From Xestospongia muta (Eukaryota > Porifera > Demospongiae > Haplosclerida > Petrosiidae), in assembly GCA_963693285.1 (NCBI GenBank), contig OY848921.1:3529497-3593496 (forward strand): a DNA stretch of 64,000 nucleotides, given 5' to 3'. The translations under genes and the position numbers were made by a program. Every line of letters starts with the position of its first letter. Positions within the stretch are counted from its first letter, which is position 1. Shown in pieces: positions 3,526-48,632 of the stretch. Below the pieces are notes generated by a model. It saw nothing but the letters and a program-made list of their open reading frames with translations. It searched no databases and was not told the DNA's origin.

Positions 3526-4436
3526 ATGTCTTCCTATCTGTTTGCTTTGTTCTTTCTCGGAGGATGTTATTACGGTAAGGTCCATAATGTCATGTAGTAT
3601 CACTTACCTTACACATTTAGCATTTTCTGTCCCACTGGATTCCTTTTATCCTTATGGTACATCAAATGGTGACAATGTATTTAGTCCAAATGATGATTTT
3701 TCAACATACATTACCTTGTCAATGCCATTTATTTTCTACAACAAGTCTTACAGTGGAGTATATGTAAGTTAATATGTTAATAGTCTCAATGACATATAGT
3801 CCCATCATTTGTATAAATAGATAAACAACAATGGTGACCTGTCATATCATGATGCTATATCATCCTATACCTCTTCACCATTTCCTCTGGCTTATACAAT
3901 AATAGCTCCTTATTGGGCTGATGTTGATACACGTGGTACTGGATCTGTCTATTACAGAGAAACATCTAATGCATCAATTATATCAACAGTAGCAAGTCAT
4001 GTGTCTAATGCATTTCCATCTCAGTCACCATTCTATGCCACTAGTGTTGTCATTGCTACATGGTATAGGGTTGGTTACTATGATCAACATACTGACAAGG
4101 TAATTTAAAATATCTGTTATATTTTATTATGATAGACATTTCAGACCAATACATTTCAATGTATTACTGCAACTGATGGCTATAGATCCTATGTTATCTT
4201 TCTTTATCTTGATAATGGTATTCAATGGACAACTGGTGATGCTAGTGGAGGTTCTAATGGCTTTGGAGGGACACCAGCACAAGTAGGGTTCAATGCTGGA
4301 GATAGGAAAAACTATTATATAGTTCCTGGATCACAAACATCCAGTATTGTGAACATAGAAACTACCAGTAATGTAGGTATAGCTGGAATGTGGGTTTTTC
4401 AAGTGAACAATGTTCAAGTGATGAGTGGAACTAATG
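3526..4436 (+). other. Signal peptide and NIDO domain exons (1-4) of the giant gene
   Basis: Exon 1 (3526-3574) codes the signal peptide. Exons 2-4 (3621-3763, 3821-4099, 4145-4436) code a complete NIDO-type domain. Landmarks are FYPYG and GD near the start, the central IIAPYWADVDTRGTGSVYYR block, SVVIATWYRVGYY, and NTFQ followed by a Gly-rich stretch (WTTGDASGGSNGFGG) and GFNAGD. These match the NIDO pattern of nidogen and SNED1-like proteins. Introns are 46-57 bp. At the exon 4 acceptor two AGs are available (after 4134 and after 4144); I chose the second because it gives a TNTFQ junction without an insertion. Confidence 0.85.
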
Positions 4437-7400
4437 GTTAGTATATTCTATAAACTACTGCTGTAATAAGTAAATAATAAAATGTTTTATTCAGTTGTGC
4501 ATTGTGATCTTCTACAAGTCAGTGCAGATATTAATGGGGGACTTACTGTGACACTCAATGGGACTACTGTGTACAGTATGGCAACCTACTCATGTAGTCA
4601 AACTGGTTATATATTAAATGAAACTACCACTAGAGTATGTCAAGATGATGGTACTTGGAGTGGAACAGTACCATCATGTCAATGTAAGATGTAGTAATTA
4701 TATTTAACAATTGAATTATGTTTTCACATGACTAGTGGTTGATTGTGGACACTTACCTGTACCTCCATCTAAACATGGAGGTCTTTCATTAATAGTATCT
4801 AATACTGTATATAACAGTATTGCCCAGTACTCATGTACTCAAGTAGGATATGAAGTAATTGGGAACTCACAACGTGTTTGTACATCTAATGGTACCTGGG
4901 GAGGAACTACACCTTATTGTCAATGTATGTATTATCAGTGTACATATATGTTATTGTCTGGCTATTAATTGTAGTAATTAATTGTGGAGTGCCTGGTCTA
5001 CCAGCAGTTAATTCATATGGATTAAGTCTCTTCTATTCCACTGTGACATATGGTAGTACAGTTAACTATAGTTGTATTAGTGGTTATAATATAGTGGGAA
5101 ATCCAACTAGAACCTGTACTGTCAATGGAAAATGGAGTGACAATCCACCTCAATGTATAGGTCAGCAATAGATTTTTAATTCCTTTTAAGTTTTGACAAT
5201 CATAATTTAGTTGTTAATTGTGGTAAGATATATGTACCTAAAGGAGCAGTGGGAGGACTATCTGTCAATTTTAAAAACACTATTGTAAACAGTACTGCTA
5301 CATACACATGTAACAGTATTGGTTATCAACTTATTGGAGAAGCCACATCAGTTTGTTCAGTAAATGGTACTTGGACAGGAACAGTCCCTTCATGCCAATG
5401 TGAGTTAAGATTGTGAGTAATTATTGCATTGAACTTAATTATTTCAGTGATTAGTTGTGGAGTGCCTGGTCTACCAGCAGTCAATTCATATGGATTAAGT
5501 CTCTTCTATTCTGTTGTGACATATGGTAGTACAGTTACCTACAGTTGTATTAGTGGTTATAATATAGTCGGAAATCCAACTAGAACCTGTACTTTCAATG
5601 GAAAATGGAGTGACAATCCACCTCAATGCATAGGTTAGCAATAAATTTTAATTTCTCTTCAAGTTTTAACAATCATAATTAGTTGTTGATTGTGGTAAGC
5701 TGTATGTACCTAAAGGAGCTGTAGGAGGACTATCTGTCAATTTTAAAAACACTATTGTAAACAGTACTGCTACATACACATGTAACAGTATTGGTTATCA
5801 ACTTATTGGAGAAGCTATATCAGTTTGTTCAGTAAATGGTAGTTGGACAGGAGCAGTTCCTTCATGCCAATGTAAGTTAAGATTGTGAATGATGAGTATA
5901 TTGAACTTAATTATTTTAGTGATTAGTTGTGGAGTACCTGAGTTACAACTTCTTAATGCAAATGGATTGACTCTCAATTATTCCACCTTGACTTATGGTA
6001 GTACAGTCACCTACAGTTGTAATGTAGGATATAATTTGGTTGGAAGTCTAAGCCAAACCTGTAACGCAAGTGGGAGTTGGAGTGGTAATCCTCCTCAATG
6101 CCAAGGTCACAATCAAATTAATAATTATAATTGTAAATTTTATTTAATCAATTAAATTATAGTCATAAACATCATATTGTTGCTGATTATTACTAATAAT
6201 AAACTTGGAATTAATAGTTCATGTGACAGAAATGTGAAGATTTTGTTTAACCATAGATACAAAATAGAGCTCTCACTATCGACTTTGTGCCTTACATAAA
6301 TCATTAAAACTTGTAAATAAACTACATGAACTGTCAATTCCATAGTAATTAGTAAGCAAAACAGGATATGTTGTTAATGGTGTGGTTTGTAATCCAAATG
6401 AACGTGACATGCAACTCAAGTGACCATTAATTAATTGATTCAACCAATCAATTTTTACAGTGATATAAATCTATTTTGCTTTCATATACAGTTGTTGATT
6501 GTGGAGTACCACATGTACCTAAAGGAACTATTGGAGGCCTCTCTGTCAACTACAATGAAACTATCATAAACAGTACTGCTACATATTCATGTAATATTGG
6601 TTATAATCTCATTGGAGAAAAGACAACAATCTGTGGAGTGAATGGAACTTGGAATGGAGCAGTACCCCACTGTGAAAGTAAGAAAAGAGAGGTATTTCTT
6701 AAACTAATATAATTTAATGATTTTAGTAATTGATTGTGGAATACCAAATTCACCTACTGCAAATTCCAGCACACTCTCTATTACATATACATTAACAACA
6801 TATAACAGTGTAGCAACATACAGTTGTGGAATTGGCTATAATTTAGTTGGTGATATACAACGTACTTGTTTACCTAATGGACTATGGAGTGGACAGCCAG
6901 CTCAATGTCAAAGTCAGCACTAAAATACTTATTATGTTATAACATAGTCCTCTTTGATATAGTTGTGAACTGTGGTATTCCAATGGTGCATGCAGTTAAT
7001 TTTACAACAATGTCAATATCATATTTATCGACTACATATAACAGCAGTGCTTTCTATAGTTGTGGCACAGGATACAATTTAGTAGGTAAATCTCAGAGAG
7101 TATGCCAATTTAATGGAAGTTGGAGTGAACAGCCTGCACAGTGTCAAAGTATGGAAAAAATAAATAATAATTATTGTTGTTCTCAATTGCCAACAGTTGT
7201 TGATTGTGGTGACTTGAGAGTAGTGTCTGGTTACTATGGAAACTTAAATGTAAACTTCCCTTCCACTACATACAACAGTACAGCCATATATATTTGTATG
7301 GACAGTGGATACAGACTTGTTGGAGAATCTATAAGAGTTTGTAATCCCAATGGAAATTGGTCTGGCAATCAACCAAAGTGTGGTGGTAAGTAAACTGTCT

Positions 7401-10400
7401 TATTATATAATGTACATAACTTTTCATATGAAGCTGTTCCTCAAAATATTTTGGGAAATGCTGCAAGTGCTTCATCTATTCAACTATCATGGACTTTACC
7501 ACTTCAACCAAATAACATCACAGATTATATTAATTACTACATAATTGAAACTAAAGACCTAAAATCTGGTCAAATCATTACTAACAGATCTACTGAACAA
7601 TTAGCAGTTATAGATTCCTTACATCCTTACAATACTTATTTGTGTAGAGTTGCTATTTTCACCAGCTATCTTAACCCTTACTCTGACTATATTTCTATTG
7701 AAACACTTCAAGCAGGTATGTCCAATTCGTAACACTATAATATTATTACATTGTTTAAAGCACCCAGCTCTTCACCACAAAATATATCAATACAAGTTTA
7801 TAACTCCACTTCCTTAAACTTATCCTGGATTACACCAGCAGTTGAGCATCATAATGGAATCATTCAATATTACATAATATGGATGAAAGTTATCAATATA
7901 GGATACAGTGCAAACTTAACTTCATACAACACATGGATTGTTCTTACCTCTTTACATCCATATTACGCTTACATCTTCCAAATAGCTGCTGTCACTGTAG
8001 AGCAAGGTCCATTTTCAACAAAGATTTCTATCACAATGCCTGAAGCAAGTTAGTACAATGTTATGATATATGGTAACTTATACTTTACTTTGTTTCATGC
8101 AGCTCCTTCTACTTCACCACTTACGATTTCTGGGCATGTTGTAGACTCAAATTCAATATTTCTTTCTTGGTCTCCTCCATTACCTCAAAATCAAAATGGA
8201 ATTATTAGAGAATACATTATAAAGATTACTGAGATATTGAGTAATAATACATTTACTAAATATTCCACTAATAACTCAATTACCATTAATTCTCTACATC
8301 CTAACTACTATTACAATCTATCAGTTAGTGCTGTAACTATATCCTCTGGTCCTTTTTCCCAACCAATTACCTTCAAAACAGATGAATCTAGTAGGTTTCT
8401 ATCATTTGTTATTATTAATTGTGATTATTATAATTGTAGCACCTAATGGTTCCCCCAATGATTTCAATGCAACAATTACATCCCCTTACTCTGCTGTACT
8501 CACTTGGGCTCCACCTCCTCCTCATCAACAAAATGGCATTATTATTGGTTTTATCATCAATGTTACAATATTAGAAACCAATGAAACCTTTCTTCTCTTT
8601 TCCAACACTACTTCACTGACAGTTAATGGTCTCAGACCTTTTAGGAACTATGTGTGTATTATTGCTGCTCAAACCAGTGTTGGTATTGGACCATACAGTG
8701 CTGTCTTTATAGTTACCACTCCACAAGATGGTATTTACACTATGTTTTATAAAATAACCTTCATATATTTAGTCTGCATATCAATATTACTGTGTATTAC
8801 TCTCTCTCTCTCTCTCTCTCTCTCCTTTCAGCTCCTTCAGCTCCACCCACTATGGTCCTCACTTCATCAATAACTTCAAAAGGATTTACCATTAGTTGGA
8901 ATCCACCAGGATATAATGATCAAAATGGACTCATTATTTATTATAATGTTTCTATAGTAGAAGTTGAGACTGGTTCTATTTTCCAGTATACTTCCTACAC
9001 TACTACACTTACTATACAATCTCTTCATCCAGCTTATACTTACCAATATAGAATTGCTGCATACACTGTAGGATTGGGACCATACTCTGATCCATTTTTT
9101 ATTACGACAGCTGAGGATGGTAAACTACTTTGCTCTTTTAATGTTGTTACATTTTTGTCTATAGTTCCAAGTCAAGCTCCTCAAAGTTTATCTGGTGTTG
9201 CGTCTTCATCAACATCTATTACTTTTTCATGGAGTCCACCACTTCCTGAGTATAGGAATGGACTAATTATCTCATATTATATCAACATTACATTATTTGG
9301 GATGGATACATTTGTGTGTTACACAACTAAACACACTACCTTTGCAATCTCTGGACTAAATCCCTACACTTCATACTCCTGTATTTTAGCAGCAGTAACT
9401 AGGATTGGACATGGACCATTTACAACTTTGTATACTATTACAACACCAGAGGATGGTATATAATTAATAATAAAACATGAATTTTATGCTTGTCTCTTCA
9501 GTTCCCAATAGTCCTCCAGTTATTACTTCACATTATGCAATTGACTCCAGGACAGTGGCTTTTCAATGGGATCCTCCTCCATCACAAGATCATAATGGCA
9601 TTATAAGGGAGTATATAGTAACAATCTCAATAGTAGGAAGTAATGAAACTCAGACACAAACATTTACTGGCACTACTGCTATCATTGGGTCACTGATGCC
9701 ATCATTTACATATCAGTTTACAGTAGCAGCTTACACTATAGCAACTGGACCATACAGTACTAGTATTAATATTACTTTACCAGAAGATGGTTAGTTACTT
9801 CAATGGACAGGTATCTTTGTCATTTTTAACTGTATTTTTCATAGTTCCAAGTGGATTCCCACAAGATATATCTGTTAATAACACAACACCATATTCTATT
9901 TCTCTGACATGGACTCCACCTCCTCTAAACCAACAAAATGGAATTATCATTCGTTATGTCGCCAATGTAACTCATATAGACACTTTAGAAACCATACAGT
10001 ATTATAGTACTGTGACTAGTATTACTATAAGTGGACTAGATCCATATACTACATATGTATGTGTAGTAGCTGCTGAGACAACCATTGGAGTTGGACCATT
10101 TAGTCACTCATCATTCACAGTTCAAACAAGAGAAGCAGGTACTATTTGTAACAATTATTGATAAACATCAATTTATTGCATTCTTTCATCAGCTCCTGAC
10201 AGTTCTCCTCAACATCCCAGTGCTATAGCTCTTAGTCCAACTAGTATTAATATTACTTGGGATCCTCCGATTCTACAAGATCATAATGGTGTCATTAGAG
10301 AATATCGTATCAATGTAACAGAAGCATTGACAGGTCTTCAAATACAAGAGATTACTAATCAAACACAAATAATCATTGATGGACTAAAACCTTACCACAT

Positions 10401-13400
10401 ATATCACTGTTATATTGTAGCTGTCACAGTAGATGAAGGACCTTACACAGTAGCTGTGTCTGTTCTAACTGAAGAAGCTGGTAAGTACACTAACAACTAT
10501 ATATATTATAATCTTGTTCTTAATATAGCACCATCTGCACCACCTCAGTCTTTGGTTGTGTCAGTAACCAGTTCTACTTCAATGTTAATTTCATGGAATC
10601 CACCTCCTATGCTCACCCAAAATGGAATTATTAGAGAATATTCTGTTATAGTACATAATGTAATGTCTGGAGTAGACCTAACTTTCTTTACACTCCATAC
10701 TCAGTTAAATATCTCTGTTCTCAGTCCATATACTACATATAGTGTAAAGGTAGCTGCTACCACTGTTGCTTTTGGTCCCTTTACTAATACCTTCAATATC
10801 ACCACTCTTCAAGATGGTATGTACATACAATGCAAATTGTTGTTCTAATGTCTTGTTATAGTACCCACAAGTCCTCCAGAACATTTCAATGGATCAGCAG
10901 TAAATGGAACTAGTCTTCAATTAAAATGGTCACCTCCTAATCCATCTGGAACTAATGGCATAATTCAATACTACAATATAACAATTGTAGAACAAGAAAC
11001 TGGCATTGTTTTCTATAGTACAACAACATCTATGTCTATAATAGTTTCAAACCTTCATCCTTATTACACATACAAGTGTACAGTGTCAGCAGTGACTATA
11101 GGGAATGGACCAGTGGCTAGTCTTATCATACAAATGCCAGAAGAAGGTTTGTGATAATTTTTTAAATTTATTGATATCTTTCTGCATATAGCTCCTGCCA
11201 GTGGTCCAGATAATGTGATATCCACACATATAACATCTACAGTCATTAATATTATGTGGGATGAGATACCCAGCAAAGATGAAAATGGTATCATTAGATA
11301 TTACCTAGTGAATGTAACAGAGACAAATACTGGATACCATTATCAAACTACATCAACTACTTCAGACATTGCTCTTAGTAATCTACATCCATATTATACA
11401 TACAGTATAACAGTAGCAGCTTATACTATAGAAGAGGGACCTTTCTCTACTCCTGTGTCTTTTACTACATTACAAGATAGTATGTCTATCATTAGTATCA
11501 CGTATGTTATTAATTTATTTTAAATACAGTACCTTCTAGTTCTCCTAAAACTTTAAGTGTCACAGTAAAGGGCTCATCAGTTATTTATATAAAATGGCTT
11601 CCACTTCCATCATCTGAGCAAAACGGAGTGATAACTGGCTATAATATATCTCTTATTGACACCACAACTGGACATGAGATCTATTTAATATCTCATAATA
11701 TATCCATCTCTTTTGATTCACTCAACCCATATACTATATATCAATACAGAATTGCTGCTTTCACATCAGTTGGACTAGGACCATATTCTAATCTATTAAC
11801 ATTTCAAACAGAAGAATCAGGTATGTTATAATTACAATGATCAAATCTTTTTAGTATATCTTCATATATAGCACCATCTTCATCTCCTAAGAATGTAACA
11901 GTAGTAACTGTAACATCAACTACAATAAAGTTATCTTGGCTATCTCCTCCATCTAACAGTCATAATGGTATTATCAGGAGTTATGTGGTAACACTTCAAG
12001 AGACCAACACTGGCACAACACTATATTACAATGTTACAAATACAGAAATCACTGTATCTTCTCTTCATCCATATTATAGCTATGAGTGTAGAATAGCTGC
12101 AGTTACTGTGTCAATGGGACCATTTAGTATTTCACTTACTGTAAAAACAAAACAAGCAGGTAAGAACACATGATATATTATTAAATACTAATTACCATAT
12201 ACTTTAGCTCCAATTGGTTCACCTACTGATATAATTGTGATAGCAGTAGACTCGTTCACACTTAATATTACCTGGAGTCAACCTCCTATTGATCAGATCA
12301 ATGGAATTATCCAACATTACATTGTTTTAGTGTCTGTTTTGGAAACATCAAATCAATTTCAGTATAATAGTTCTGATACAAGTCTACTTCTTACTAAACT
12401 TCATCCATACTACACATATACTGTATTAGTTGCTGCAGTTACTGTTGGTGTTGGACCTTATTCAATTGGATACACTATCAAAACACCATCTAGTGGTAAG
12501 ATTATATTCATTTTCTTTTATCTATAAAAACATAAAGTGGTGAATACATCAACCTTTTAACATTTGTTTATAGCTAACTTACAAATATTTTCATTAATAT
12601 TTAGCTCCTAGTGATCCACCTCAAAATATTAGTGGTATTGCATTAAGCCCAACTAAAATACAACTGTTATGGAAACCTCCTTTATCTCATCATCAAAATG
12701 GAGTGATACAATCATACACTATCACTGTATTTGAAGTGAACACTAACACTACTCATGAAGTTCATCAAGACATCTTAAATACCAGTATCATTTTAACTGG
12801 ACTCCATCCTTATTATGAATATAAATTATCAGTAGCAGCATACACTGTTGGATTAGGTCCATTTTCGTTTGTTTATGTGACCACATTACAAGATGGTAAG
12901 TAATATATTTATGAATAAACTGTTATTGGTCTATCATATAGTTCCTACTGGATCTCCAAGATACTTGACTGTCAATATTACTAGCTCTTTTACTGTGACA
13001 CTACATTGGAGTCCTCCAGATTCTCATCTCTTAAATGGTGTTATCCAACATTATATCATCACACTAAGAAACAGTGAAACTGGACAGTCAAAATTGTTAA
13101 CATCAGAAAAAGCAATTTTTTATATCACTAGTTTGCATCCATTTTATACATACAGTTGTAGTGTTGTTGCTGTAACAGTGGGTTCTAGTCCTGCTATTAA
13201 CATCTCATTTCAAATGCCTGAAGATGGTAAGTGACAGTGGTTAATGATCACATTGATTCACTCTTATACAGTGCCTTCTGCTTCACCAAATGCTCTCAAT
13301 GTATCTTTTATAACTTCAACAAGTGCGTTACTGACTTGGACTCAACCTTTACTATCTGAACAAAATGGAGTGATAACTGGCTATAATATATCTCTTATTG

Positions 13401-16400
13401 ACACTACAACTGGACATGAGATCTATTTAGTATCTCATAATGTATCCATCTCTGTTGATTCACTCAACCCATATACTATATATCAATACAGAATTGCTGC
13501 TTTCACATCAGTTGGACTAGGACCATATTCTAATCTATTAACATTTCAAACAGAAGAATCAGGTATGTTATAATTACAATGATCAAATCTTTTTAGTATT
13601 AATTCATATACAGCACCTTCTTCATCTCCTAAGAATGTATCAGTAGTAACTGTAACATCAACTACAATAAAGTTATCTTGGCTATCTCCTCTATCTAACA
13701 GTCATAATGGTATTATCAGGAGTTATGTGGTAACACTTCAAGAGACCAACACTGGCACAACACTATATTACAATGTTACAAATACAGAAATCACTGTATC
13801 TTCTCTTCATCCATATTATAGCTATGAGTGTAGAATAGCTGCAGTTACTGTGTCAATGGGACCATTTAGTATTTCACTTACTGTAAAAACAAAACAAGCA
13901 GGTAAGAACACATGATATATTATTAAATACTGATTACTATATACTTTAGCTCCAATTGGTTCACCTACTGATATAATTGTGATAGCAGTAGACTCGTTCA
14001 CACTTAATATTACCTGGAGTCAACCTCCTATTGATCAGATCAATGGAATTATCCAACATTACATTGTTTTAGTGTCTGTTTTGGAAACATCAAATCAATT
14101 TCAGTATAATAGTTCTGATACAAGTCTACTTCTTACTAAACTTCATCCATACTACACATATACTGTATTAGTTGCTGCAGTTACTGTTGGTGTTGGACCT
14201 TATTCAATTGGATACACTATCAAAACACCATCTAGTGGTAAGATTATATTCATTTTCTTTTATCTATAAAAACATAAAGTGGTGAATACATCAACCTTTT
14301 AACATTTGTTTATAGCTAACTTACAAATATTTTCATTAATATTTAGCTCCTAGTGATCCACCTCAAAATATTAGTGGTATTGCATTAAGCCCAACTAAAA
14401 TACAACTGTTATGGAAACCTCCTTTATCTCATCATCAAAATGGAGTGATACAATCATACACTATCACTGTATTTGAAGTGAACACTAACACTACTCATGA
14501 AGTTCATCAAGACATCTTAAATACCAGTATCATTTTAACTGGACTCCATCCTTATTATGAATATAAATTATCAGTAGCAGCATACACTGTTGGATTAGGT
14601 CCATTTTCGTTTGTTTATGTAACCACATTACAAGATGGTAAGTAATATATTTATGAATAAACTGTTATTGGTCTATCATATAGTTCCTACTGGATCTCCA
14701 AGATACTTGACTGTCAATATTACTAGCTCTTTTACTGTGACACTACATTGGAGTCCTCCAGATTCTCATCTCTTAAATGGTGTTATCCAACATTATATCA
14801 TCACACTAAGAAACAGTGAAACTGGACAGTCAAAATTGTTAACATCAGAAAAAGCAATTTTTTATATCACTAGTTTGCATCCATTTTATACATACAGTTG
14901 TAGTGTTGTTGCTATAACAGTGGGTTCTAGTCCTGCTATTAACATCTCATTTCAAATGCCTGAAGATGGTAAGTGACAGTAGTTAATGATCACATTGATT
15001 CACTCTTATACAGTGCCTTCTGCTTCACCAAATGCTCTCAATGTATCTTTTATAACTTCAACAAGTGCGTTACTGACTTGGACTCAACCTTTACTATCTG
15101 AACAAAATGGAGTGATAACTGGCTATAATATATCTCTTATTGACACTACAACTGGACATGAGATCTATTTAGTATCTCATAATGTATCCATCTCTGTTGA
15201 TTCACTCAACCCATATACTATATATCAATACAGAATTGCTGCTTTCACATCAGTTGGACTAGGACCATATTCTAATCTATTAACATTTCAAACAGAAGAA
15301 TCAGGTATGTTATAATTACAATGATCAAATCTTTTTAGTATTAATTCATATACAGCACCTTCTTCATCTCCTAAGAATGTATCAGTAGTAACTGTAACAT
15401 CAACTACAATAAAGTTATCTTGGCTATCTCCTCTATCTAACAGTCATAATGGTATTATCAGGAGTTATGTGGTAACACTTCAAGAGACCAACACTGGCAC
15501 AACACTATATTACAATGTTACAAATACAGAAATCACTGTATCTTCTCTTCATCCATATTATAGCTATGAGTGTAGAATAGCTGCAGTTACTGTGTCAATG
15601 GGACCATTTAGTACTGCACTTACTGTAACAACAAAACAAGCAGGTAAGAACACATGATATATTATTAAATACTGATTACCATATACTTTAGCTCCAATTG
15701 GTTCACCTACTGATATAATTGTGATAGCAGTAGACTCGTTCACACTTAATATTACCTGGAGTCAACCTCCTATTGATCAGATCAATGGAATTATCCAACA
15801 TTACATTGTTTTAGTGTCTGTTTTGGAAACATCAAATCAATTTCAGTATAATAGTTCTGATACAAGTCTACTTCTTACTAAACTTCATCCACACTACACA
15901 TATACTGTATTAGTTGCTGCAGTTACTGTTGGTGTTGGACCTTATTCAATTGGATACACTATCAAAACACCATCTAGTGGTAAGATTATATTCATTTTCT
16001 TTTATCTATAAAAACATAAAGTGGTGAATACATCAACCTTTTAACATTTGTTTATAGTTAACTTACAAATATTTTTATTAATATTTAGCTCCTAGTGGTC
16101 CACCTCAAAATATTAGTGGTATTGCATTGAGCTCAACTAAAATACAACTGTTATGGAAACTGCCTTTATCTCATCATCAAAATGGAGTGATACAATCATA
16201 CACTATCACTGTATTTGAAGTGAACACTAACACTACTCATGAAGTTCATCAAGACATCTTAAATACCAGTATCATTTTAACTGGACTCCATCCTTATTAT
16301 GAATATAAATTATCAGTAGCAGCATACACTGTTGGATTAGGTCCATTTTCGTTTGTTTATGTGACCACATTACAAGATGGTAAGTACTCATATATTAATG

Positions 16401-25400: not shown

Positions 25401-28400
25401 CATCCATACTACACATATACTGTATTAGTTGCTGCAGTTACTGTTGGTGTTGGACCTTATTCAATTGGATACACTATCAAAACACCACCTAGTGGTAAGA
25501 TTATATTCATTTTCTTTTAATTTTAAAAAAAAATAAGGTAAATACATAAAACCTTTTAACATCTTTGTATCATTAACTTACTAGTATTTTTCATTAATAT
25601 TTACTGTTATTCATCTATCATATAGTTCCTACTGGATCTCCAAAATACTTGACTGTCAATATTACTAGCTCTTCTACTGTGACACTACATTGGAGTCCTC
25701 CAGATTCTCATCTCTTAAATGGTGTTATCCAACATTATATCATCACACTAAGAAACAGTGAAACTGGACAGTCAAAATTGTTAACATCAGAAAATACAAA
25801 TATCTATATCACTAATTTACATCCATTTTATACATACAGTTGTAGTGTTGTTGCTGTAACAGTGGGTTCTAGTCCTGCTATTAACATCTCATTTCAAATG
25901 CCTGAAGATGGTAAGTGACAGTGGTTAATGATCACATTGATTCACTCTTATACAGTGCCTTCTGCTTCACCAAATGCTCTCAATGTATCTTTTATAACTT
26001 CAACAAGTGCGTTACTGACTTGGACTCAACCTTTACTATCTGAACAAAATGGAGTGATAACTGGCTATAATATATCTCTTATTGACACTACAACTGGACA
26101 TGAGATCTATTTAGTATCTCATAATGTATCCATCTCTGTTGATTCACTCAACCCATATACTATATATCAATACAGAATTGCTGCTTTCACATCAGTTGGA
26201 CTAGGACCATATTCTAATCTATTAACATTTCAAACAGAAGAATCAGGTATGTTATAATTACAATGATCAAATCTTTTTAGTATTAATTCATATACAGCAC
26301 CTTCTTCATCTCCTAAGAATGTATCAGTAGTAACTGTAACATCAACTACAATAAAGTTATCTTGGCTATCTCCTCTATCTAACAGTCATAATGGTATTAT
26401 CAGGAGTTATGTGGTAACACTTCAAGAGACCAACACTGGCACAACACTATATTACAATGTTACAAATACAGAAATCACTGTATCTTCTCTTCATCCATAT
26501 TATAGCTATGAGTGTAGAATAGCTGCAGTTACTGTGTCAATGGGACCATTTAGTACTTCACTTACTGTAAAAACAAAACAAGCAGGTAAGAACACATGAT
26601 ATATTATTAAATACTGATTACTATATACTTTAGCTCCTATTGGTTCACCTACTGATATAATTGTGATAGTAGTAGACTCGTTCACACTTAATATTACTTG
26701 GGGACAGCCTCCTATTGATCAGATCAATGGAATTATCCAACATTACATTGTTTTAGTGTCTGTTTTGGAAACATCAAATCAATTTCAGTATAATAGTTCT
26801 GATACAAGTCTACTTCTTACTAAACTTCATCCATACTACACATATACTGTATTAGTTGCTGCAGTTACTGTTGGTGTTGGACCTTATTCAATTGGATACA
26901 CTATCAAAACACCACCTAGTGGTAAGATTATATTCATTTTCTTTTAATTTTAAAAATAAATAAGGTAAATACATAAAACCTTTTAACATCTTTGTATCAT
27001 TTACTTACTAGTATTTTCATTAATATTTATTGTTATTCATCTATCATATAGTTCCTACTGGATCTCCAAGATATTTAACTGTCAATATTACTAGCTCTTC
27101 TACTGTGACACTACATTGGAGTTCTCCAGATTCTCATCTCTTAAATGGTGTTATTCAACATTATATCATCACACTAAGAAACAGTGAAACTGGACAGTCA
27201 AAATTGTTAACATCAGAAAATACAAATTTCTATATCACTAATTTACATCCATTTTATACATACAGTTGTAGTGTTGTTGCTGTAACAGTGGGTTCTAGTC
27301 CTGCTATTAACATCTCATTTCAAATGCCTGAAGATGGTAAGTGACAGTGGTTAATGATCACATTGATTCACTATTATACAGTGCCTTCTGCTTCGCCAAA
27401 TGTTGTCGATGTATCTTTTATAACTTCAACAAGTGCATTACTGACTTGGACTCAACCTTTACTATCTGAACAAAATGGAGTGATAACTGGCTATAATATA
27501 TCTCTTATTGACACTACAACTGGACATGAGATCTATTTAGTATCTCATAATGTATCCATCTCTGTTGATTCACTCAACCCATATACTATATATCAATACA
27601 GAATTGCTGCTTTCACATCAGTTGGACTAGGACCATATTCTAATCTATTAACATTTCAAACAGAAGAATCAGGTATGTTATAATTACAATGATCAAATCT
27701 TTTTAGTATTACTTCATATATAGCACCATCTTCATCTCCTAAGAATGTATCAGTAGTAACTGTAACATCAACTACAATAAAGTTATCTTGGCTATCTCCT
27801 TCATCTAACAGTCATAATGGTATTATCAGGAGTTATGTGGTAACACTTCAAGAGACCAACACTGGCACAACACTATATTACAATGTTACAAATACAGAAA
27901 TCACTGTATCTTCTCTTCATCCATATTATAGCTATGAGTGTAGAATAGCTGCAGTTACTGTGTCAATGGGACCATTTAGTACTTCACTTACTGTAAAAAC
28001 AAAACAAGCAGGTAAGAACACATGATATATTATTAAATACTGATTACCATATACTTTAGCTCCAATTGGTTCACCTACTGATATAATTGTGATAGCAGTA
28101 GACTCATTCACACTTAATATTACCTGGAGTCAACCTCCTATTGATCAGATCAATGGAATTATCCAACATTACATTGTTTTAGTGTCTGTTTTGGAAACAT
28201 CAAATCAATTTCAGTATAATAGTTCTGATACAAGTCTACTTCTTACTAAACTTCATCCACACTACACATATACTGTATTAGTTGCTGCAGTTACTGTTGG
28301 TGTTGGACCTTATTCAATTGGATACACTATCAAAACACCATCTAGTGGTAAGATTATATTCATTTTCTTTTATCTATAAAAATATAAAGTGGTGAATACA

Positions 28401-31400
28401 TCAACCTTTTAACATTTGTGTATCATTAACTTACTAGTTTTTTCATTAATATTTAGCTCCTAATGGTCCACCTCAAAATATTAGTGGTATTGCATTGAGC
28501 TCAACTAAAATACAACTGTCATGGAAACCTCCTTTATCTCATTATCAAAATGGAGTAATACAATCATACACTATCACTGTATTTGAAGTGAACACTAACA
28601 CTACTCATGAAGTTCATCAAAACATCTTAAATACCAGTATCATTTTAACTGGACTCCATCCTTATTATGAATATAAATTATCAGTAGCAGCATACACTGT
28701 TGGATTAGGTCCATTTTCGTTTGTTTATGTGACCACATTACAAGATGGTAAGTACTCATATATTAATGAATAAACTGTTATTGGTCTATCATATAGTTCC
28801 TACTGGATCTCCAAGATACTTAAGTGTCAATATTACTAGCTCTTCTACTGTGACACTTCATTGGAGTCCTCCAGATTCTCATCTCTTAAATGGTGTTATC
28901 CAACATTATATCATTACAATAAGAAACAGCGAAAGTGGACAGTCAAAATTGTTAACATCAGAAAATACAAATATCTATATCACTAGTTTGCATCCATTTT
29001 ATACATACAGTTGTAGTGTTGTTGCTGTAACAGTGGGTTCTAGTCCTGCTGTTAACATCTCATTTCAAATGCCTGAAGATGGTAAGTGACAGTAGTTAAT
29101 GATCTTAAAGTTTCACTCTTATACAGTGCCTTCTGCTTCACCAAATGCTCTCAATGTATCTTTTATAACTTCAACAAGTGCATTACTGACTTGGACTCAA
29201 CCTTTACTATCTGAACAAAATGGAGTGATAACTGGCTATAATATATCTCTTATTGACACTACAACTGGACATGAGATCTATTTAGTATCTCATAATGTAT
29301 CCATCTCTGTTAATTCACTCAACCCATATACTATATATCAATACAGAATTGCTGCTTTCACATCAGTTGGACTTGGACCATATTCTAATCTATTAACATT
29401 TCAAACAGAAGAATCAGGTATGTTATAATTACAATGATCAAATCTTTTTAGTATTACTTCATATATAGCACCATCTTCATCTCCTAAGAATGTATCAGTA
29501 GTAACTGTAACATCAACTACAATAAAGTTATCTTGGCTATCTCCTCCATCTAACAGTCATAATGGTATTATCAGGAGTTATGTGGTAACACTCCAAGAGA
29601 CCAACACTGGCACAACACTATATTACAATGTTACAGATACAGAAATCACTGTATCTTCTCTTCATCCATATTATAGCTATGAGTGTAGAATAGCTGCAGT
29701 TACTGTGTCAATGGGATCATTTAGTACTGCACTTACTGTAACAACAAAACAAGCAGGTAAGAAAGCCTTATTTGTAATTCAATACTTCTTACCATATCAC
29801 CTTAGCTCCAAGTGGTCCACCAACTGCTATAGCTCTAACAGCAGTCGACTCATTCACACTTAATATCACATGGGAAAAGCCTTCTTTTGATCAGATCAAT
29901 GGAATTATCCAAAGTTACACTGTTTCAGTGTCTGTTATGGAAACATTAGATCATTATCAGTACATCAGTTATAGTACAAGTATACTTCTTACTAAACTTC
30001 ATCCATACTACACATATACTGTATTAGTTGCTGCAATTACTGTAGGTACTGGACCCTATTCAATTGGATACACTATCAAAACACCACCTAGTGGTAAGAT
30101 TATTAATATGTCCTTCTAGTAATAAATATAATTAATATAATGTGAGTACAAAATTTATTATTGCAATGTTGAATTGATTTACTAGTATTTTTTATTCATA
30201 TTTAGCTCCTAATGGTCCACCTCAAAATATTAGTGGTATTGCATTGAGCTCAACTAAAATACAACTGTTATGGAAACCTCCTTTATCTCATTATCAAAAT
30301 GGAGTAATACAATCATACACTATCACTGTATTTGAAGTGAACACTAACACTACTCATGAAGTTCATCAAGACATCTTAAATACCAGTATCATTTTAACTG
30401 GACTCCATCCTTATTATGAATATAAATTATCAGTAGCAGCATACACTGTTGGATTAGGTCCATTTTCGTTTGTTTATGTGACCACATTACAAGATGGTAA
30501 GTACTCATATATTAATGAATAAACTGTTATTGGTCTATCCTATAGTTCCTACTGGATCTCCAAGATACTTAACTGTCAATATTACTAGCTCTTCTACTGT
30601 GACACTTCATTGGAGTCCTCCAGATTCTAATCTCTTAAATGGTGTTATCCAACATTATATCATCACACTAAGAAACAGTGAAACTGGACAGTCAAAATTG
30701 TTAACATCAGAAAATACAAATTTCTATATCACTAACTTACATCCATTTTATACATACAGTTGTAGTGTTGTTGCTGTAACAGTGGGTTCTAGTCCTGCTA
30801 TTAACATCTCATTTCAAATGCCTGAAGATGGTAAGTGACTAATTTTAAACCTATATACAATTCTTTAAACTCTATACAGTACCATCAGCTTCACCAAATG
30901 CTCTTGTTGTATCTTTCATAACTTCAACCAGTGCATTACTGTCTTGGAGTCCACCATTAGCTCCTGAACATAATGGTGTTATAACAGGATATTCAGTTAC
31001 TGTTGTCGAAATCACCTCTTCAGAGACAGTGACATATACAACCATTAACCAAACACTGATTGTAACTGCTCTTCTTCCATATACTAGCTACAATTTTACA
31101 GTAGCAGCCAGTACTAATGAAGGACTAGGACCAAACTCAGATTTCTTATCATTCCAAACTTTACAAGATGGTAAGTTTTCATCATATTTATTCTATATTT
31201 GTTGTCTTTTATATCAGCACCTTCTGCTTCTCCCTCAAATGTAATGGCAAATAATGTGTCATCAAATTCATTCACATTGAACTGGCAGTCACCACCACAA
31301 AATACTCATAATGGAATAATAATTGGCTATAATGTTATTACTCAAGAAATAACCTCCGGCATAACATACACTAACTTTACATCACATACATCTATTGTCC

Positions 31401-34400
31401 TCAATTTCTTACATCCTTACTATCAATACAACTGTACTGTAGCTGCTGTGACTGTATCAATAGGTCCTACCAGTGACATAGTAACTATACAAACATTACA
31501 AGCAGGTATGTTTGTGAAATGACACTGCTAAGTAAATTGTTGTATTTTTCTATTGTAGCTCCCAGTAGTCCACCAAGGTTATTGGTTATCACTGCCATGA
31601 ACTCTCACTCAATCAACATATCTTGGAATCCTCCTCCAATGGATAAAGTCAATGGAATCATCCAGTATTATTTTGTCAATATAACTGTAATGGAGACCTC
31701 ACAGACTCTTTACTTTCAAACCAGTGATACATTTGTCTCATTAAATGATGTTCATCCTCACTACACATACACTGTTGTAGTGGCTGCTGTTACAATAGCA
31801 ATTGGACCATTCTCAACAGAGCAGTCCATTACTACTCCACAAGATGGTAATTATCTATAATAATTTGATATTATAGTTTATTCACTTATTTACTTAGTGC
31901 CATCTGGACAACCTCAAAATGTATCTGCTGTTGTTTTAAATGCTACAGCTATTCAATTATATTGGAGTCCTCCACTGGAACATGAACAAAATGGAATAAT
32001 TACATCATACACAGCTGTAGTATTTGAAGTCAATACCAATAATACTATTGGGAGTTGGAGTTATAGCTTAAAATCAAATGTGATTATAGGCAATCTACAT
32101 CCATATTATGAATACAGGTTGTTAGTAGGAGCAGCAACAGTTATTGGATTAGGTCCATTCTATGAAGTACAAGTACAGACTGATCAAGCAGGTACATGTA
32201 GATATACTAATACATTTCAATACAAAATTACTATTATTTATCACAGCACCTAGTGTTGCACCACAGAATGTACTAGTGAATGTAACAAGTTCATCTTCCG
32301 TCACTATACAATGGAGCCCACCAGATTTGGATGAACAAAATGGAGTTATTGTTCACTACATGGTCACTATTTTAGACACACAGATTGATACTACAATGAT
32401 TTACAATGTTACTGAACTGGTCCTTTATATCAATGATCTACATCCATTTTACATTTATAAATGTAGTATAACAGCAATGACAATTGATCCCAGTCCTGAG
32501 GCTGTTAAGTTCTTCCAAATGTTAGAAGATGGTTAGAAACATCTATTATTCAGCATAAAAATCATTTTCCTTTATCTTTAGTTCCATCTGGACCACCAAC
32601 TAATGTTACCATCACAATATTGAGTTATAATTCTGTTATAGTTACCTGGTTTCCACCTATATTGTCCTTACAAAATGGCATCATCAGAGAATATACTGTC
32701 ATAATTAATGATGTTGACACAAAATCTTCTCAAACTGTTTCAGTGATTAATAAAACTAACTTTAAAATATCTGAGTTGAAGTCATTCCATACTTATAGTA
32801 TATTGGTGTCTGCATTTACTGTTGGGTTAGGACCATTTGCTGAGCCAGTAACAATACAAATGCCTGAAGCAAGTATGTCAATAGATTAAGTGACTGGTTA
32901 CACTAATACTTCTTAATTTACAGGTCCTGGATCATCTCCATCTAACTTTTTGGCTGAAAAAGAAAGTAATTTGACATTACATCTTTCTTGGGGGGCTCCT
33001 TCTAAAGAAGATCATAATGGTATCTTATTGGGCTATGAATTAACCTGTTCTGGACAAACTAATCACACTATATCTGTACAAATATCAGGAACAAGTGTCT
33101 CATTATTTGATCTTCAAAACAATACACACTATACTTGTACAGTATGTGCTTATACATCTGCTGGATGTGGACCATATGCTGTGACATATGTCAGTACATA
33201 TACAAATTGTGAGTTTCTTGACATGTATATGAATAATATAATTGAATCTTTTACAGCTCCAGTTGGTCCTCCTCACTCACTGACTGCTACCACTACAGCT
33301 ACAGAGATACACTTACAATGGCAAAGTCCATTTGATCCTGAGTCTATAATCCAAAGCTTTGCTATCACATATCAACTGATAGACACAGTATTTCCTATTA
33401 CAACACCTCGTGGAGAAGTGAGTATAGCTGACATCACAAATACTACATATGTAGTTCAACCACTATTGGTTTCATCAACTTACAAACTAGTAGTATTTGC
33501 AGTGACTGCTGAAGGTATTGTGTCAGCTAGTAAAGAGATAGTTGTAACAACACATCAACCAGGTATAACTTATTTTAATGCTTGCCAATATACATCATCG
33601 ATGATGCTTTTATTTGTAGCTCTACATGCACCTCAAAATCTTAAGTGTTCTCCAACAAGTTCAAAGAATCTCTTATGTACTTGGAAAGCACCTTCAGTAT
33701 CCAATTATCAAGTGACCAGTTATGAACTAAGTTATAAACTAGTAGATGGATTTGACTACTACCCTGGATATGGAGAGGTGTTGGGTATATTTACCTTGTC
33801 ATCTGAGACACAGCAGTATGACATCAGTGATCTGTTACCTTATGGTGGTTATCAAGTTGAAGTAAAAGTTCATCTCTCTCCAGTTAGGAAGGGGTCAGGA
33901 TATTCAAATGATTCAGATTTACCAGTTGGAAAATCAACAACAGTCAATATTACACATGCTGAAGGTGATCATATTATTTTGATATGGTATCTTCAAATTT
34001 AATTCACTAGCTCCCACAGTTTCAGTAAAAGACATTTCTCTTGAGATAGAGTCCCCAACATCTGTGAGAGTGTCTTGGAAGCCTCCAAACAAGAGAGAAT
34101 GGAAGGGCAAAATTAATGGTTACAAGATAACTGTTATTTGTCTAGGTCCTAATGAAGGGTTTACAAGGTGTGAATCACAAGATAACAGTATTACTGTGGT
34201 ACCTCAAGCTAACAATCCTGATCCTAGTTTGGCAATGGAGCCATTACAATCAGAACAATATTTAATTAAAGGATTAGAAGAGAATTATGAATACAACTTC
34301 TCGATCAGTATTATCAATGGTGGTGGAAGTGGATTGCCTTCTACTCCAATGTCACAAGTAATGCCTCAAGCAGGTCAGTAGCCGGACAATATGTACATAC

Positions 34401-35860
34401 ATGTAATTGTTATTATAGCTCCTTCTGGACCTCCTGTTAATATAATACTTGTTAGTGTTAGTGTTTCCTCTATCAATATAACATGGTTACCTCCTAATCC
34501 TTTGGATGCTAATGGAGTAATCACTGGATATAGAGTATTGTTTACAAGAATAGAAATCAAAGAGACTACAAAATGTAATGTACAACCAGAGGAGACTTCA
34601 TTCTTTAAAAGCGGTCTGTTTAATTTTAAAATAAGTCGTAACGATTGTCACATCATATATAGGACTACATTACTATGAAAATGTCAGTATACAAGTAGCA
34701 GCTAAAACTGTTGTTGGTTGGGGGCCTTTATCATCTGAACATTATTTCTTAACAAGTCAAGACAGTAAGTTACTTTCTGTATTCACAATCTGTTCTATAA
34801 ATACAATTTACAGGATCAAGTCCTCCTCAATCTTTAAAAGCTACTATTACAAATGATACTACAATTTTATTGACTTGGAAACCACCAGTTGATGCTAAAG
34901 GAATTATAATTGGATATCAAGTGATTTACTCTGGATATGGACAATCTACAGGAGTAAGGTGTTCTTCTTATTGTATATGGTATTTGATACAGTCGTAGGA
35001 TGAGTGTGATGGACCTTATTTAAGAAATGTAGCAATATCAGAAAATTTACAAGTTGTAATCACTGCTTTAGTACCTGGACTATTCTATAAGTTCAAGGTA
35101 GGTAATCACTTATTGGAAGTAATATTCAGCATCAGTACAGGTTCGAGCAATAAATGGAGCAGGAAATGGGGAAAGTGCTTATGTTGCATTATTATTGTCT
35201 ATAAGTCCTGTAAGAGATTGTAAGTGAATTAATTATATAAGTATAAAAGTTTTAACTATCTGTAGCAAAATTAATTTTATGTTTATATGGATATAATTTA
35301 CATTTTAGCTGATATCAATCAAAAATCTGATAGAAATAATATTTTCGTAATTATCACACCCATTGGACTATTTCTAGCCATCATAATTGCACTATTACTT
35401 TCAGTTGTCTGTGTTGTGGTAATTGTGAAGAGGTGCAAAAAACAAAAGTGAGCTACAAATGAAAGAAATTTTAATGAGAAATAAATATATTCAGACATAA
35501 TAATGAACCAGTTACTATTGAAAATTCTTCATTACAATTACAACTTCATGAAACAAGGTCCGAGCATATATCTACCAGAGTAGTCATATAATATATTTGT
35601 CTTATACTCACAGACAAGACAGAAGAACTGAAAATGACGAAGAAATAAGTCAGATCAATTTCACTGAAAATGTATGATATACTATAATTTTTAATGTTTG
35701 GTGAGCTATTATATATTATAGTGTGGGATAGAAGACCCCAAAGTTATAGTTAATGAAACAAGTCAAACGACTGGTGTTGGTAAGATTAAAATAATTATAG
35801 TTCTTGCATGTGTGTTACTACGTTTTTACAGATGAAAGTCCTGAAGAGAGTGTGGTTTGA
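3526..35860 (+). CDS. Giant single-pass surface protein: NIDO, 11 CCP/sushi, 79 FN3, TM, PDZ-ligand-like tail
   Basis: I reconstructed 102 exons by hand from GT/AG sites and continuous frame; the sum is 26,142 nt (about 8,713 aa). The ATG at 3526 opens a hydrophobic signal peptide (MSSYLFALFFLGG). Order: signal peptide and NIDO (residues ~1-254), 11 CCPs (~255-941), 79 FN3s (~942-8598), one TM helix (~8610-8635) and a ~78-residue tail ending ESVV. Exons: 3526-3574, 3621-3763, 3821-4099, 4145-4436, then the CCP, FN3 and tail exons listed under the sub-entries. From the first CCP through the last single-exon FN3, every module is one exon in phase 1-1. NIDO, CCP and FN3 are extracellular adhesion or recognition modules; SNED1-like proteins mix the same types but are far shorter. 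Function is not known; adhesion or self-recognition is inference. Weak points: exact acceptor at 4145 and membrane-proximal splits at 34613 and 34953. Confidence 0.85.
4495..7385 (+). other. Eleven CCP/sushi domain exons of the giant gene
   Basis: Exons: 4495-4683, 4736-4924, 4975-5160, 5211-5399, 5448-5633, 5683-5871, 5920-6105, 6492-6677, 6727-6912, 6963-7148, 7197-7385. Each is 186 or 189 nt, phase 1-1, and encodes one CCP module with four Cys: DCG near the start, a Y-S/T-C, a C-x(n)-G-x-W and a final C-Q. CCP modules are beta-sandwich binding domains found in complement regulators and adhesion proteins. Exons 3-4 and 5-6 of this set are near copies of each other. The 386-bp intron after 6105 is the longest in the gene and holds nothing I recognise. 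Confidence 0.9.
7434..11479 (+). other. Twelve diverse N-terminal FN3 domain exons of the giant gene
   Basis: Exons: 7434-7715, 7761-8048, 8103-8390, 8440-8730, 8832-9119, 9165-9455, 9502-9789, 9845-10138, 10193-10480, 10529-10816, 10862-11146, 11192-11479. All are phase 1-1 and 282-294 nt. Each begins with A/V-P-S-x-x-P, has the W of strand B (SW/TW-x-PP), then NGII, LHPY-x-x-Y and A-A-x-T, ending G-P-[YF]-S. These are standard FN3 core positions (Trp in strand B, Tyr in the tyrosine corner). They are mutually divergent, unlike the array that follows. Many carry N-x-S/T glycosylation sequons. Confidence 0.88.
8797..8824. repeat. (TC)n microsatellite as polypyrimidine tract
   Basis: A run of about 14 TC units lies directly upstream of the acceptor at 8831 and doubles as the polypyrimidine tract of that intron. 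Confidence 0.8.
11530..13271 (+). repeat. FN3 pentad unit 1 (A-B-C-D-E), hybrid exon A
   Basis: Exons A 11530-11820, B 11872-12159, C 12208-12495, D 12605-12895, E 12942-13226. The first third of exon A, up to about 11620, differs from all later A copies; after it the exon matches them closely. This marks the left border of the array inside a coding exon. Confidence 0.88.
13272..15013 (+). repeat. FN3 pentad unit 2 (A-B-C-D-E)
   Basis: Exons A 13272-13562, B 13614-13901, C 13950-14237, D 14347-14637, E 14684-14968. The unit is 1,742 bp, exactly the length of unit 1, with only scattered substitutions in exons and introns. E carries the EKAIF variant. Confidence 0.9.
15014..16758 (+). repeat. 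FN3 pentad unit 3 (A-B-C-D-E)
   Basis: Exons A 15014-15304, B 15356-15643, C 15692-15979, D 16089-16379, E 16429-16713. Length 1,745 bp. E carries the ENTNI variant and the following intron is the 'cttaaag' type. With unit 4 it forms a 3,171-bp long-plus-short super-unit. Confidence 0.9.
16759..18184 (+). repeat. FN3 unit 4, short form without exon D (A-B-C-E)
   Basis: Exons A 16759-17049, B 17101-17388, C 17437-17724, E 17855-18139. Length 1,426 bp. Exon D is absent; the 130-bp C-E intron starts like a C-D intron and ends like a D-E intron, so D was deleted with both breakpoints in introns. The reading frame is kept because D is phase 1-1. Confidence 0.9.
18185..19929 (+). repeat. FN3 pentad unit 5 (A-B-C-D-E)
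   Basis: Exons A 18185-18475, B 18527-18814, C 18863-19150, D 19260-19550, E 19600-19884. Length 1,745 bp. It starts the second 3,171-bp super-unit. Confidence 0.9.
19930..21355 (+). repeat. FN3 unit 6, short form without exon D
   Basis: Exons A 19930-20220, B 20272-20559, C 20608-20895, E 21026-21310. Length 1,426 bp. It carries the same fused C-E intron as unit 4. Confidence 0.9.
21356..23100 (+). repeat. FN3 pentad unit 7 (A-B-C-D-E)
   Basis: Exons A 21356-21646, B 21698-21985, C 22034-22321, D 22434-22724, E 22771-23055. Length 1,745 bp. It starts the third super-unit (3,172 bp with unit 8). Its D exon and C-D intron differ from those of units 3 and 5 at several sites. Confidence 0.9.
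23101..24527 (+). repeat. FN3 unit 8, short form without exon D
   Basis: Exons A 23101-23391, B 23443-23730, C 23779-24066, E 24198-24482. Length 1,427 bp. Exon C has a variant first half (APSGSP start, GQPN core) that resembles unit 12 more than its neighbours, a sign of gene conversion. Confidence 0.9.
24528..25955 (+). repeat. FN3 unit 9, short form without exon D
   Basis: Exons A 24528-24818, B 24870-25157, C 25207-25494, E 25626-25910. Length 1,428 bp. The B donor is GTCAGA rather than GTAAGA. The B-C intron resembles that of unit 12, and exon C is the unit 8 variant. Confidence 0.88.
25956..27381 (+). repeat. FN3 unit 10, short form without exon D
   Basis: Exons A 25956-26246, B 26298-26585, C 26634-26921, E 27052-27336. 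Length 1,426 bp. Exon C looks like a mosaic of the two C variants: the common start, then GQPP. Confidence 0.88.
27382..29126 (+). repeat. FN3 pentad unit 11 (A-B-C-D-E)
   Basis: Exons A 27382-27672, B 27724-28011, C 28060-28347, D 28457-28747, E 28797-29081. Length 1,745 bp. It is recombinant: the intron before A is the 'cacattg' type, but the A-B intron is the type normally linked to 'cttaaag'. Confidence 0.9.
29127..30879 (+). repeat. FN3 pentad unit 12 (A-B-C-D-E), last near-identical unit
   Basis: Exons A 29127-29417, B 29469-29756, C 29806-30093, D 30206-30496, E 30546-30830. Length 1,753 bp. C and its flanking introns are clearly more diverged than in units 1-7, so homogenisation fades at this end of the array. 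Confidence 0.88.
30880..32581 (+). other. Diverged 13th FN3 pentad (A'-B'-C'-D'-E')
   Basis: Exons 30880-31170, 31218-31505, 31559-31846, 31898-32191, 32247-32531. Each resembles its positional counterpart. A' shares the SASPNAL and SFITSTSALL stretches of A, but only in its first third; C' has the 'NGIIQYY...METS' pattern; D' has 'FEVNTN'; E' has 'PPD...NGVI.HY'. The pentad order therefore predates the recent amplification, and this copy has escaped homogenisation. Confidence 0.8.
32582..35219 (+). other. C-terminal, non-repetitive FN3 block of the giant gene
   Basis: Single-exon FN3s: 32582-32872, 32924-33208, 33257-33562, 33620-33964, 34011-34373. The next FN3 is split over 34419-34613 and 34663-34764, and the last over 34814-34953, 34999-35097 and 35141-35219. 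The FN3s at 33620 and 34011 are longer (115 and 121 codons) with extra loops. Intron phases become mixed here (1-1, then 1-0, 0-0, 0-1), unlike the rest of the array. The donors at 33965 (GTGATC) and 34614 (GTCTGT) are weak but are the only ones that keep the frame and the FN3 core (GLHYYENVSIQVAAKTVVGW). Confidence 0.75.
35309..35860 (+). other. Transmembrane helix and cytoplasmic tail exons of the giant gene
   Basis: Exons 35309-35447, 35495-35557, 35614-35671, 35722-35779, 35832-35860 join in frame to TGA at 35858. The first carries a ~26-residue hydrophobic helix (IFVIITPIGLFLAIIIALLL onward) followed by basic KRCKK, the classic stop-transfer layout of a type I protein. The tail is acidic, has no tyrosine and ends ESVV, which fits a class I PDZ-binding motif (S/T-x-V). 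The donor at 35558 (GTCCGA) is weak. Confidence 0.75.
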
Positions 35861-36047
35861 AAATAATTATACAGGGTGTGGTCTTTAGGTTTTATAACCT
35901 TCTACAAATTTGCTATCGTTTTATAAACATTTAAAATTTGTATTTTTTTCTTTAATACTATTGGTTCCTTCACAGTCCTTTACTGTGCAAAAGTCTTTTT
36001 CATAAATTTTGTTGTGTAACCATTACAAGAATTTCAGCAAAAATATA
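35861..36047. other. 187-bp tail-to-tail intergenic spacer
   Basis: This spacer lies between the stop codon of the giant gene (+) and that of GABA-B-like receptor 1 (-). A minus-strand ATTAAA (plus-strand TTTAAT at 35951-35956) could serve as the poly(A) signal of the receptor. No clear plus-strand AATAAA is present, so the two 3' UTRs probably overlap. Confidence 0.45.
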
Positions 36048-48308: not shown

Positions 48309-48632
48309 CTATCAAAAGAGAGCATCAATGAACAAAGTTGTGGTTATGATAAACCAATAGTCATGTGATATTAAGTAATTATTTTATTTCGTGGTTTTCT
48401 TAGATAACTGATTATTCTTAGAACAATGTTGTTTTTTCAATATCAACTTTAGATTCATAATGATCTATTCATAATAGTACAAACAATAAACCTGAAAGTG
48501 TTAAGCTAATGTAAACAACACTTGATAATCCCCATTAGAAAATACATATGCCCTAATTTGGACAATAGACAAGTTCACTTTTGTATTAAAACTATAAATA
48601 CAAGCACACATATCAGAGTCAAGTGAACTAAC
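48309..48632 (+). promoter_or_regulatory. Upstream region of the intronless gene, with a TATA box
   Basis: ACTATAAATA at 48591-48600 lies 33 nt before the ATG at 48633, implying a very short 5' UTR with initiation near 48620. The rest of this 324-bp stretch shows no exon that could extend the RAP1GDS1-like fragment. Confidence 0.45.

Follow-up and report, generated by a model that had tools for sequence, protein, structure and literature searches.

A predicted 8,708-residue sponge membrane receptor with 79 FN3 domains and a stalk that appears to have lengthened by duplication of a five-exon unit

The sponge Xestospongia muta carries, in the 64,000-nucleotide stretch analysed here (the window; C5:3529497-3593496, where C5 is contig OY848921.1 of assembly GCA_963693285.1, a 158-Mb genome in 28 contigs), a chain of 102 short exons that is predicted to form one intact, exceptionally long receptor gene. 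The encoded protein (8,708 amino acids, 946 kDa, pI 5.4) comprises a signal peptide, a NIDO domain, 11 CCP (Sushi) domains, 79 fibronectin type III (FN3) domains, a transmembrane (TM) segment and a cytoplasmic tail. We read it, with a probability of roughly 0.6, as the product of one intact gene and as a single-pass type I membrane receptor of the adhesion/recognition class. The FN3 fold itself is ordinary; the number of FN3s is unusual, and no membrane receptor with 79 of them is known to us. The stalk appears to have grown from 29 to 79 FN3s by repeated duplication of one five-module block within the gene, 29 being what is left when the 50 extra FN3s are subtracted. Judged from the sequence, the gene structure and the duplication route of the stalk are both well supported, and it is the ligand and the function that we infer. 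Among the predicted genes of a local paralogue cluster, the giant gene is the longest member.

The original prediction had joined this chain in frame from signal peptide to stop over positions 3526-35860, and a dynamic-programming gene model started at the ATG at 3526 recovered it. A first run over-split the exons and was replaced by one with a stiffer exon penalty, after which two spurious short exons (6163-6379) were dropped by hand and a merged CCP exon was split (intron 7149-7196). The edited model has 103 exons; all of its 102 introns are GT-AG, and no in-frame stop interrupts it. The 102-exon version used here adopts the last exon of the original prediction (35832-35860) instead of an additional one in the model (35976-36005). 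Introns are short (median 49 nt; the two longest 386 and 131 nt), leaving little space for internal promoters or intergenic spacers, and 94 of 102 are in phase 1. With parameters trained on the same gene chain, the model scored 4287 on the real strand, compared with 511 on the reverse complement of the gene, 317 on the + strand of 36201-64000 and 182-258 on all five dinucleotide shuffles. The view that this is a single very long receptor is strengthened by these short introns and by a paralogue, gene A, about 140 kb away (minus strand, 3393550-3380534), which has the same exon order from NIDO through to the membrane-proximal FN3s and a related tail.

The domain content first read from the letters was borne out by a Pfam scan and by a hydropathy scan. 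The fn3 family matched all 77 single-exon FN3s (E <= 0.001) and two stretches of the joined membrane-proximal piece, giving the total of 79; titin, LAR-type phosphatases, ROS, Dscam and contactins are among the solved structures closest to the FN3 profile (best 60 of 156). A single hydrophobic segment, starting at residue 8607, was found in the whole protein, with no internal segment above threshold, and the predicted ectodomain holds 202 N-glycosylation sequons. No EGF-like or follistatin match was obtained in the 88 exon domains or in the joined NIDO and C-terminal pieces, no Calx-beta match among the scanned domains (the presence of a Wreath model in Pfam being unchecked) and no match to a catalytic domain, the tail being only about 70 residues long; RGD, LDV and KGD motifs are all absent from the protein. 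The C-terminal ESVV might, at a guess, fit a class I PDZ ligand.

The original prediction gave the total length correctly and overlooked the source of most of it, a 12-copy higher-order repeat of five FN3 exons that holds 55 of the 79 FN3s. The repeat was missed by Tandem Repeats Finder (TRF), whose period limit was 500, and emerged when 75 FN3 exons (7434-33562) were labelled by >85% nucleotide identity: from 11872 onward the labels cycle in fives through 12 units (u1-u12, starting at 11872, 13614, 15356, 17101, 18527, 20272, 21698, 23443, 24870, 26298, 27724 and 29469), seven of five exons and five of four. Units u1-u11 are mutually 94.7-99.5% identical over their full length, introns included; u12 is 82-86% identical to them, and its last exon is the unduplicated exon at 30880. 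It is the third exon that is missing from the five short units, and their fused introns are 130-131 nt long in every case. Since the fused introns at 17725 and 24067, the only two compared directly, are the same but for one base, the simplest reading is a single deletion that was then copied. By summed nonsynonymous (dN) and synonymous (dS) divergence the closest unit pairs are u4-u6, u3-u5 and u1-u2, as if two-unit blocks had also been duplicated.

Successive units are joined by a hybrid exon. In the first of these, at 13272, the initial 79 nt are 83.5% identical to the exon at 30880 and 51.9% to that at 11530, and the remainder reverses this pattern, with 96.2% identity to the exon at 11530 and 54.2% to that at 30880. 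The breakpoint scan was made on this exon, and the other ten hybrids were assigned by family label. Such an exon is as expected for a mark of unequal crossing-over within an FN3 domain: the repeat unit would have arisen when two FN3 exons, separated by five positions, recombined internally, keeping both register and reading frame, and would then have been amplified to 12 in the giant gene while the loss of the third exon spread to five units. Because of the prevailing phase-1 introns, gain, loss or skipping of units would preserve the reading frame. The same hybrid exon is present in the second unit of paralogue B2 (0.85 and 0.95), and in paralogues C and D2 the parent exons are still unfused. 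As the divergence among u1-u11 is smaller than the distance between paralogues, amplification or homogenisation of the units is a later event than the split from A.

Paralogues were sought in the 180 kb upstream of the window, taken as 18 stretches. Ten gene models (F1, F2, A, C, D1, D2, E, B1, B2 and the giant gene) lie on both strands within about 200 kb, together with fragments; both ends of the models of B1, D1, E, F1 and F2 are uncertain, as are the heads in those of C and B2. The giant gene fits the NIDO-CCP-FN3-TM family of this cluster in its stalk exon order and its related TM-tail region. Outside the repeat, A and the giant gene share the same order at 82-99.5% nucleotide identity, only exons of >=90 nt and similar length being compared, with several exceptions. 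The window CCP exons at 5448 and 5683 are second matches to A7 and A8; TRF finds a CCP pair (4973-6113, period 472 bp) that is tandemly duplicated relative to A, which has nine CCP hits. The CCP exon at 6963-7148 reaches 65% since the program split its counterpart in the A model, and 96% when compared otherwise. The exons at 30880, 31218 and 31559 (62-66%) have no counterpart in A and are present in C, D2 and B2. The 51% of the window TM exon refers to a different exon of A, the TM lengths differing, and is uninformative on TM conservation. A, C and D2 each contain a single five-exon unit, and B2 contains two. When one unit was used in a candidate-limited genome search, the 14 matches listed beyond the window fell without exception in these four genes; likewise, all five genome matches of the membrane-proximal FN3 exon at E <= 1e-5 lie in A, C, D2, B2 and the giant gene.

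The cluster members differ in their heads and in their stalks. NIDO-CCP heads are found in A, B1, E, D1, F1, F2 and the giant gene. In paralogue D2 (C5:3421257-3435406) the same kind of FN3 stalk, TM and tail carries a VWA (148 bits) and immunoglobulin head; C and B2 have heads that match VWA_4 at about 28-41 bits, against a cut-off of 27. B1 lacks the membrane-proximal FN3s and repeats a unit of six FN3s, twice in full and once more short of the final exon. Paralogue E (C5:3442018-3454241) consists of NIDO, some 41-42 CCPs in repeated blocks of its own, TM and tail, with no FN3 hit; D1 is NIDO-CCP-TM-tail, and F1 and F2 are NIDO-CCP8 with a different TM region. The tails of the cluster align through QINF-like (QINF, QMNF, QINY) and IEDPK-like motifs. 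This was seen by alignment alone, as a genome search with the tail did not detect those of the paralogues; its 17 matches were four in the giant gene and 13 weak ones on C10, C3, C1 and C14 (best E 5e-4). Genome-wide, NIDO gave at least 151 matches (150 of 217 candidates scored), with dense groups at C1 25.55-26.22 Mb, C7 2.9-3.0 Mb and C9 1.04-1.10 and 5.15 Mb. Two distant NIDO loci that were sampled (C1 1.86 Mb and C13 4.41 Mb) have five and nine CCP hits, and no FN3 hit in the 10 kb taken at each.

Table 1. Parts of the predicted giant gene, in window positions
Feature	Position	Strand	Evidence or remark
Exon 1, signal peptide MSSYLFALFFLGGCYY	3526..3574	+	near-identical first exons in paralogues B1, E, D1
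NIDO domain, three exons (3621-3763, 3821-4099, 4145-4436)	3621..4436	+	PF06119, 214.8 bits (joined domain); genome-search match here
11 CCP/Sushi exons	4495..7385	+	PF00084 matched by 11 of 11
Longest intron, 386 nt	6106..6491	+	57 nt in the model of paralogue A
13 single-exon FN3s	7434..11820	+	colinear with A15-A27 of paralogue A, 88-97% nucleotide identity
Higher-order repeat, 12 five-FN3-exon units, 55 FN3s	11872..31170	+	exon labels, identities
First hybrid junction FN3 exon	13272..13562	+	breakpoint scan
Ten further hybrid-family exons	15014, 16759, 18185, 19930, 21356, 23101, 24528, 25956, 27382, 29127	+	label >85% nucleotide identity
Fused intron from loss of third unit exon	17725..17854	+	length; read beside 24067
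Other fused introns of similar length	20896-21025, 24067-24197, 25495-25625, 26922-27051	+	lengths
Nine single-exon FN3s	31218..34373	+	fn3 matches; exon comparison with paralogues
Two membrane-proximal FN3s over five exons	34419..35219	+	two fn3 stretches; aligned with A, C, B2, partly D2
Transmembrane exon	35309..35432	+	hydropathy scan; alignment with paralogue TM regions
Cytoplasmic tail exons, end ESVV, no tyrosine	35495..35860	+	QINF-like and IEDPK-like motifs common to paralogues

Relatives of the head were found in other sponges. The original prediction had proposed a search for sponge orthologues, and none of full length was found in three protein searches with length-limited candidates (two of them scoring 7,990 candidates each). 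The three best protein matches of the head are from Amphimedon queenslandica (P0001-P0003, 53-54% identity), and a search with the N-terminal 1,424 residues of gene A returned sponge NIDO-FN3 and NIDO-CCP proteins. A. queenslandica P0001, P0002, P0003 and P0136 combine NIDO with CCP, as does the giant gene, but these records have no FN3; P0001 carries a fibrinogen domain in place of FN3s, the P0003 record is flagged as partial, and P0136 shows NIDO, nine CCP hits and what looks by eye like a TM segment. Conversely, Ephydatia muelleri P0154, P0180 and P0210 resemble the giant gene in having NIDO followed by FN3s and differ in having no CCP hit and a single-FN3 unit, although their gene models may be incomplete. 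P0154, with 16 FN3 hits by profile and 14 motif-cut units that average 87% amino-acid identity (range 70-96%), is apparently a second homogenised FN3 array behind a NIDO head. In P0210 a tyrosine-kinase domain follows the NIDO-FN3 part, and EGF-like stretches can be made out by eye; the protein may be a receptor kinase of the sponge, or its gene model may be a fusion. Among the paper titles listed, none concerned this NIDO-CCP-FN3 family; one paper that contains both 'sponge' and 'NIDO domain' makes a passing mention of the domain (PMC10280926).

Among known systems, the likeness to SNED1 that was originally put forward holds for the NIDO head and for the Sushi and FN3 modules. It does not extend to the rest, since the giant receptor has no EGF-like or follistatin match, no RGD and a TM anchor, and 11 CCPs and 79 FN3s where SNED1 has one and three; SNED1 identity is therefore rejected in spite of the N-terminal NIDO, SNED1 being secreted. 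Human CR1, a type I receptor of repeated multi-module blocks, is the best analogue for the repeat logic. CR1 alleles differ in their number of seven-CCP blocks (PMC10953339). The giant receptor has five-FN3 blocks instead and an otherwise different domain make-up, and its 11 CCPs followed by 79 FN3s rule out a CCP-only ectodomain in blocks of seven. No complement binding by the giant receptor is known to us. The A-band super-repeats of titin are likewise a higher-order repeat of FN3-containing blocks, but titin is an intracellular muscle protein in which immunoglobulin and FN3 domains are mixed and the repeats are old. A receptor tyrosine phosphatase or kinase with an FN3 stalk is excluded by the short tail without a catalytic match. 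Sponge aggregation factors are characterized by Calx-beta and Wreath domains, and that identity was rejected for want of Calx-beta among the scanned domains.

Selection was estimated from 20 exon pairs outside the repeat (1,839 codons, hand-listed from the colinear ones), for which the giant gene and A differ by dN 0.042 and dS 0.103, a ratio of 0.41 that points to constraint. Over the three exons shared by u1-u11, dN is 0.021 and dS 0.041 (ratio 0.51), and u12 differs from the single unit of A by dN 0.045 and dS 0.083; constraint looks weaker on the unit than on the rest of the gene.

Several observations weigh against the receptor reading. Between unit copies, the dN/dS of exons 1 and 2 is 0.93 and 0.61 (0.40, 0.40 and 0.41 for exons 3-5), and u1-u11 differ from the single unit of A by dN 0.071-0.086 and dS 0.078-0.105 (ratios of about 0.7-1.1), so that the unit protein has changed almost as fast as silent sites and relaxed or diversifying change would be as likely as constraint. 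The unit number is taken from one assembly, and the introns of the giant gene contain 19 AATAAA hexamers. In the hydropathy scan, the C, D, B1 and B2 models each show a TM segment near the C-terminus; the A model, in which the TM exon is shorter, shows none. The tails of A, C, D2 and B2 keep a NEYEIG-like motif and those of A, C, D2 and B1 keep YDEP; since the giant tail has neither of these tyrosine motifs, the receptor may signal differently or not at all. Finally, a protein search with the membrane-proximal stalk, limited in length and candidates, returned only 16 remote FN3 proteins, none of them named as sponge.

Other readings of the locus have been considered. The cluster might be a polymorphic self/non-self or immune recognition locus in which heads are exchanged and stalk lengths vary between individuals. 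The three head types among its ten gene models and fragments, two of them on the FN3 stalk of the NIDO-CCP type, would suit such a locus, as would the amplification of different units in different members (five FN3s in the giant gene, six in B1, CCP units in E) and a dN near dS when the repeat units are compared with the single unit of A; nevertheless, we think it unlikely, as the view is from one genome, the ratio outside the repeat is 0.41, and no comparable sponge allorecognition gene was seen among the paper titles listed. Alternatively, the protein might be a structural matrix tether, a membrane-bound SNED1-like molecule whose ectodomain is shed or serves as a long mesohyl anchor. NIDO, CCP and FN3 fall within the module set of a matrix protein, no catalytic domain is matched and there are 202 sequons, but the tail motifs are kept in the paralogues and the RGD, LDV and KGD motifs are missing, which makes a tether decidedly improbable. 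Inflation or misjudgement of the unit number through assembly of a near-identical repeat is suggested by units up to 99.5% identical and by the closest pairs, which could reflect misjoined haplotypes; it is nonetheless very unlikely, given that the units differ in sequence and in the presence of the third exon, that the 14 unit matches of the candidate-limited search all fall in A, C, D2 and B2 on one contig, and that B2 has two units with the same hybrid exon. That several adjacent genes or a decayed array were joined by chance, as the very unusual length and the intronic hexamers might hint, is scarcely credible beside the lack of any internal hydrophobic segment over threshold, of any intron >386 nt and of any frame break, null scores at least eight-fold lower and the colinear paralogue A.

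Elsewhere in the window, a single-exon open frame of 1,285 residues (48627-52484, + strand) has, by eye, a secreted-looking start and several hydrophobic segments further on. It gave no Pfam match above the cut-off, and we would guess that it resembles beta-helix plus multi-pass membrane proteins. Just downstream, at 52829-53327, TRF finds 26 copies of a 19-bp minisatellite, ATTAAGGCAGTATTAGTAC.

For the preferred reading, an adhesion/recognition receptor, the NIDO-CCP head would be the binding end, with a partner on a neighbouring cell, in the matrix or on a microbe. This is by analogy with human SNED1, in which the NIDO-containing N-terminal region is sufficient for cell adhesion (PMC11828466). 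The short tail without an enzyme would couple to scaffolds. The stalk would act as a spacer that holds the head some 250-300 nm from the membrane, at about 3-3.5 nm per FN3, and the unit number would set the reach of the receptor. Most likely, the reach and the head of the cluster receptors evolve by exon-unit exchange. A bolder and rather doubtful proposal is that of a modular receptor factory, in which a conserved stalk-membrane-tail cassette takes exchangeable heads, intragenic unequal crossing-over varies the unit number between individuals, and the resulting heritable reach is used in self/non-self or microbe recognition.

Modular adhesion receptors are a known kind of protein; of more weight is a locus that records how a giant receptor lengthened, preserving the steps of growth from unfused parent exons (C, D2) through one duplication with its hybrid exon (B2) to twelve units in the giant gene. 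With a shared stalk bearing different heads, it is a concrete candidate for a surface-recognition locus of sponges and allows a direct test of stalk-length variation between individuals.
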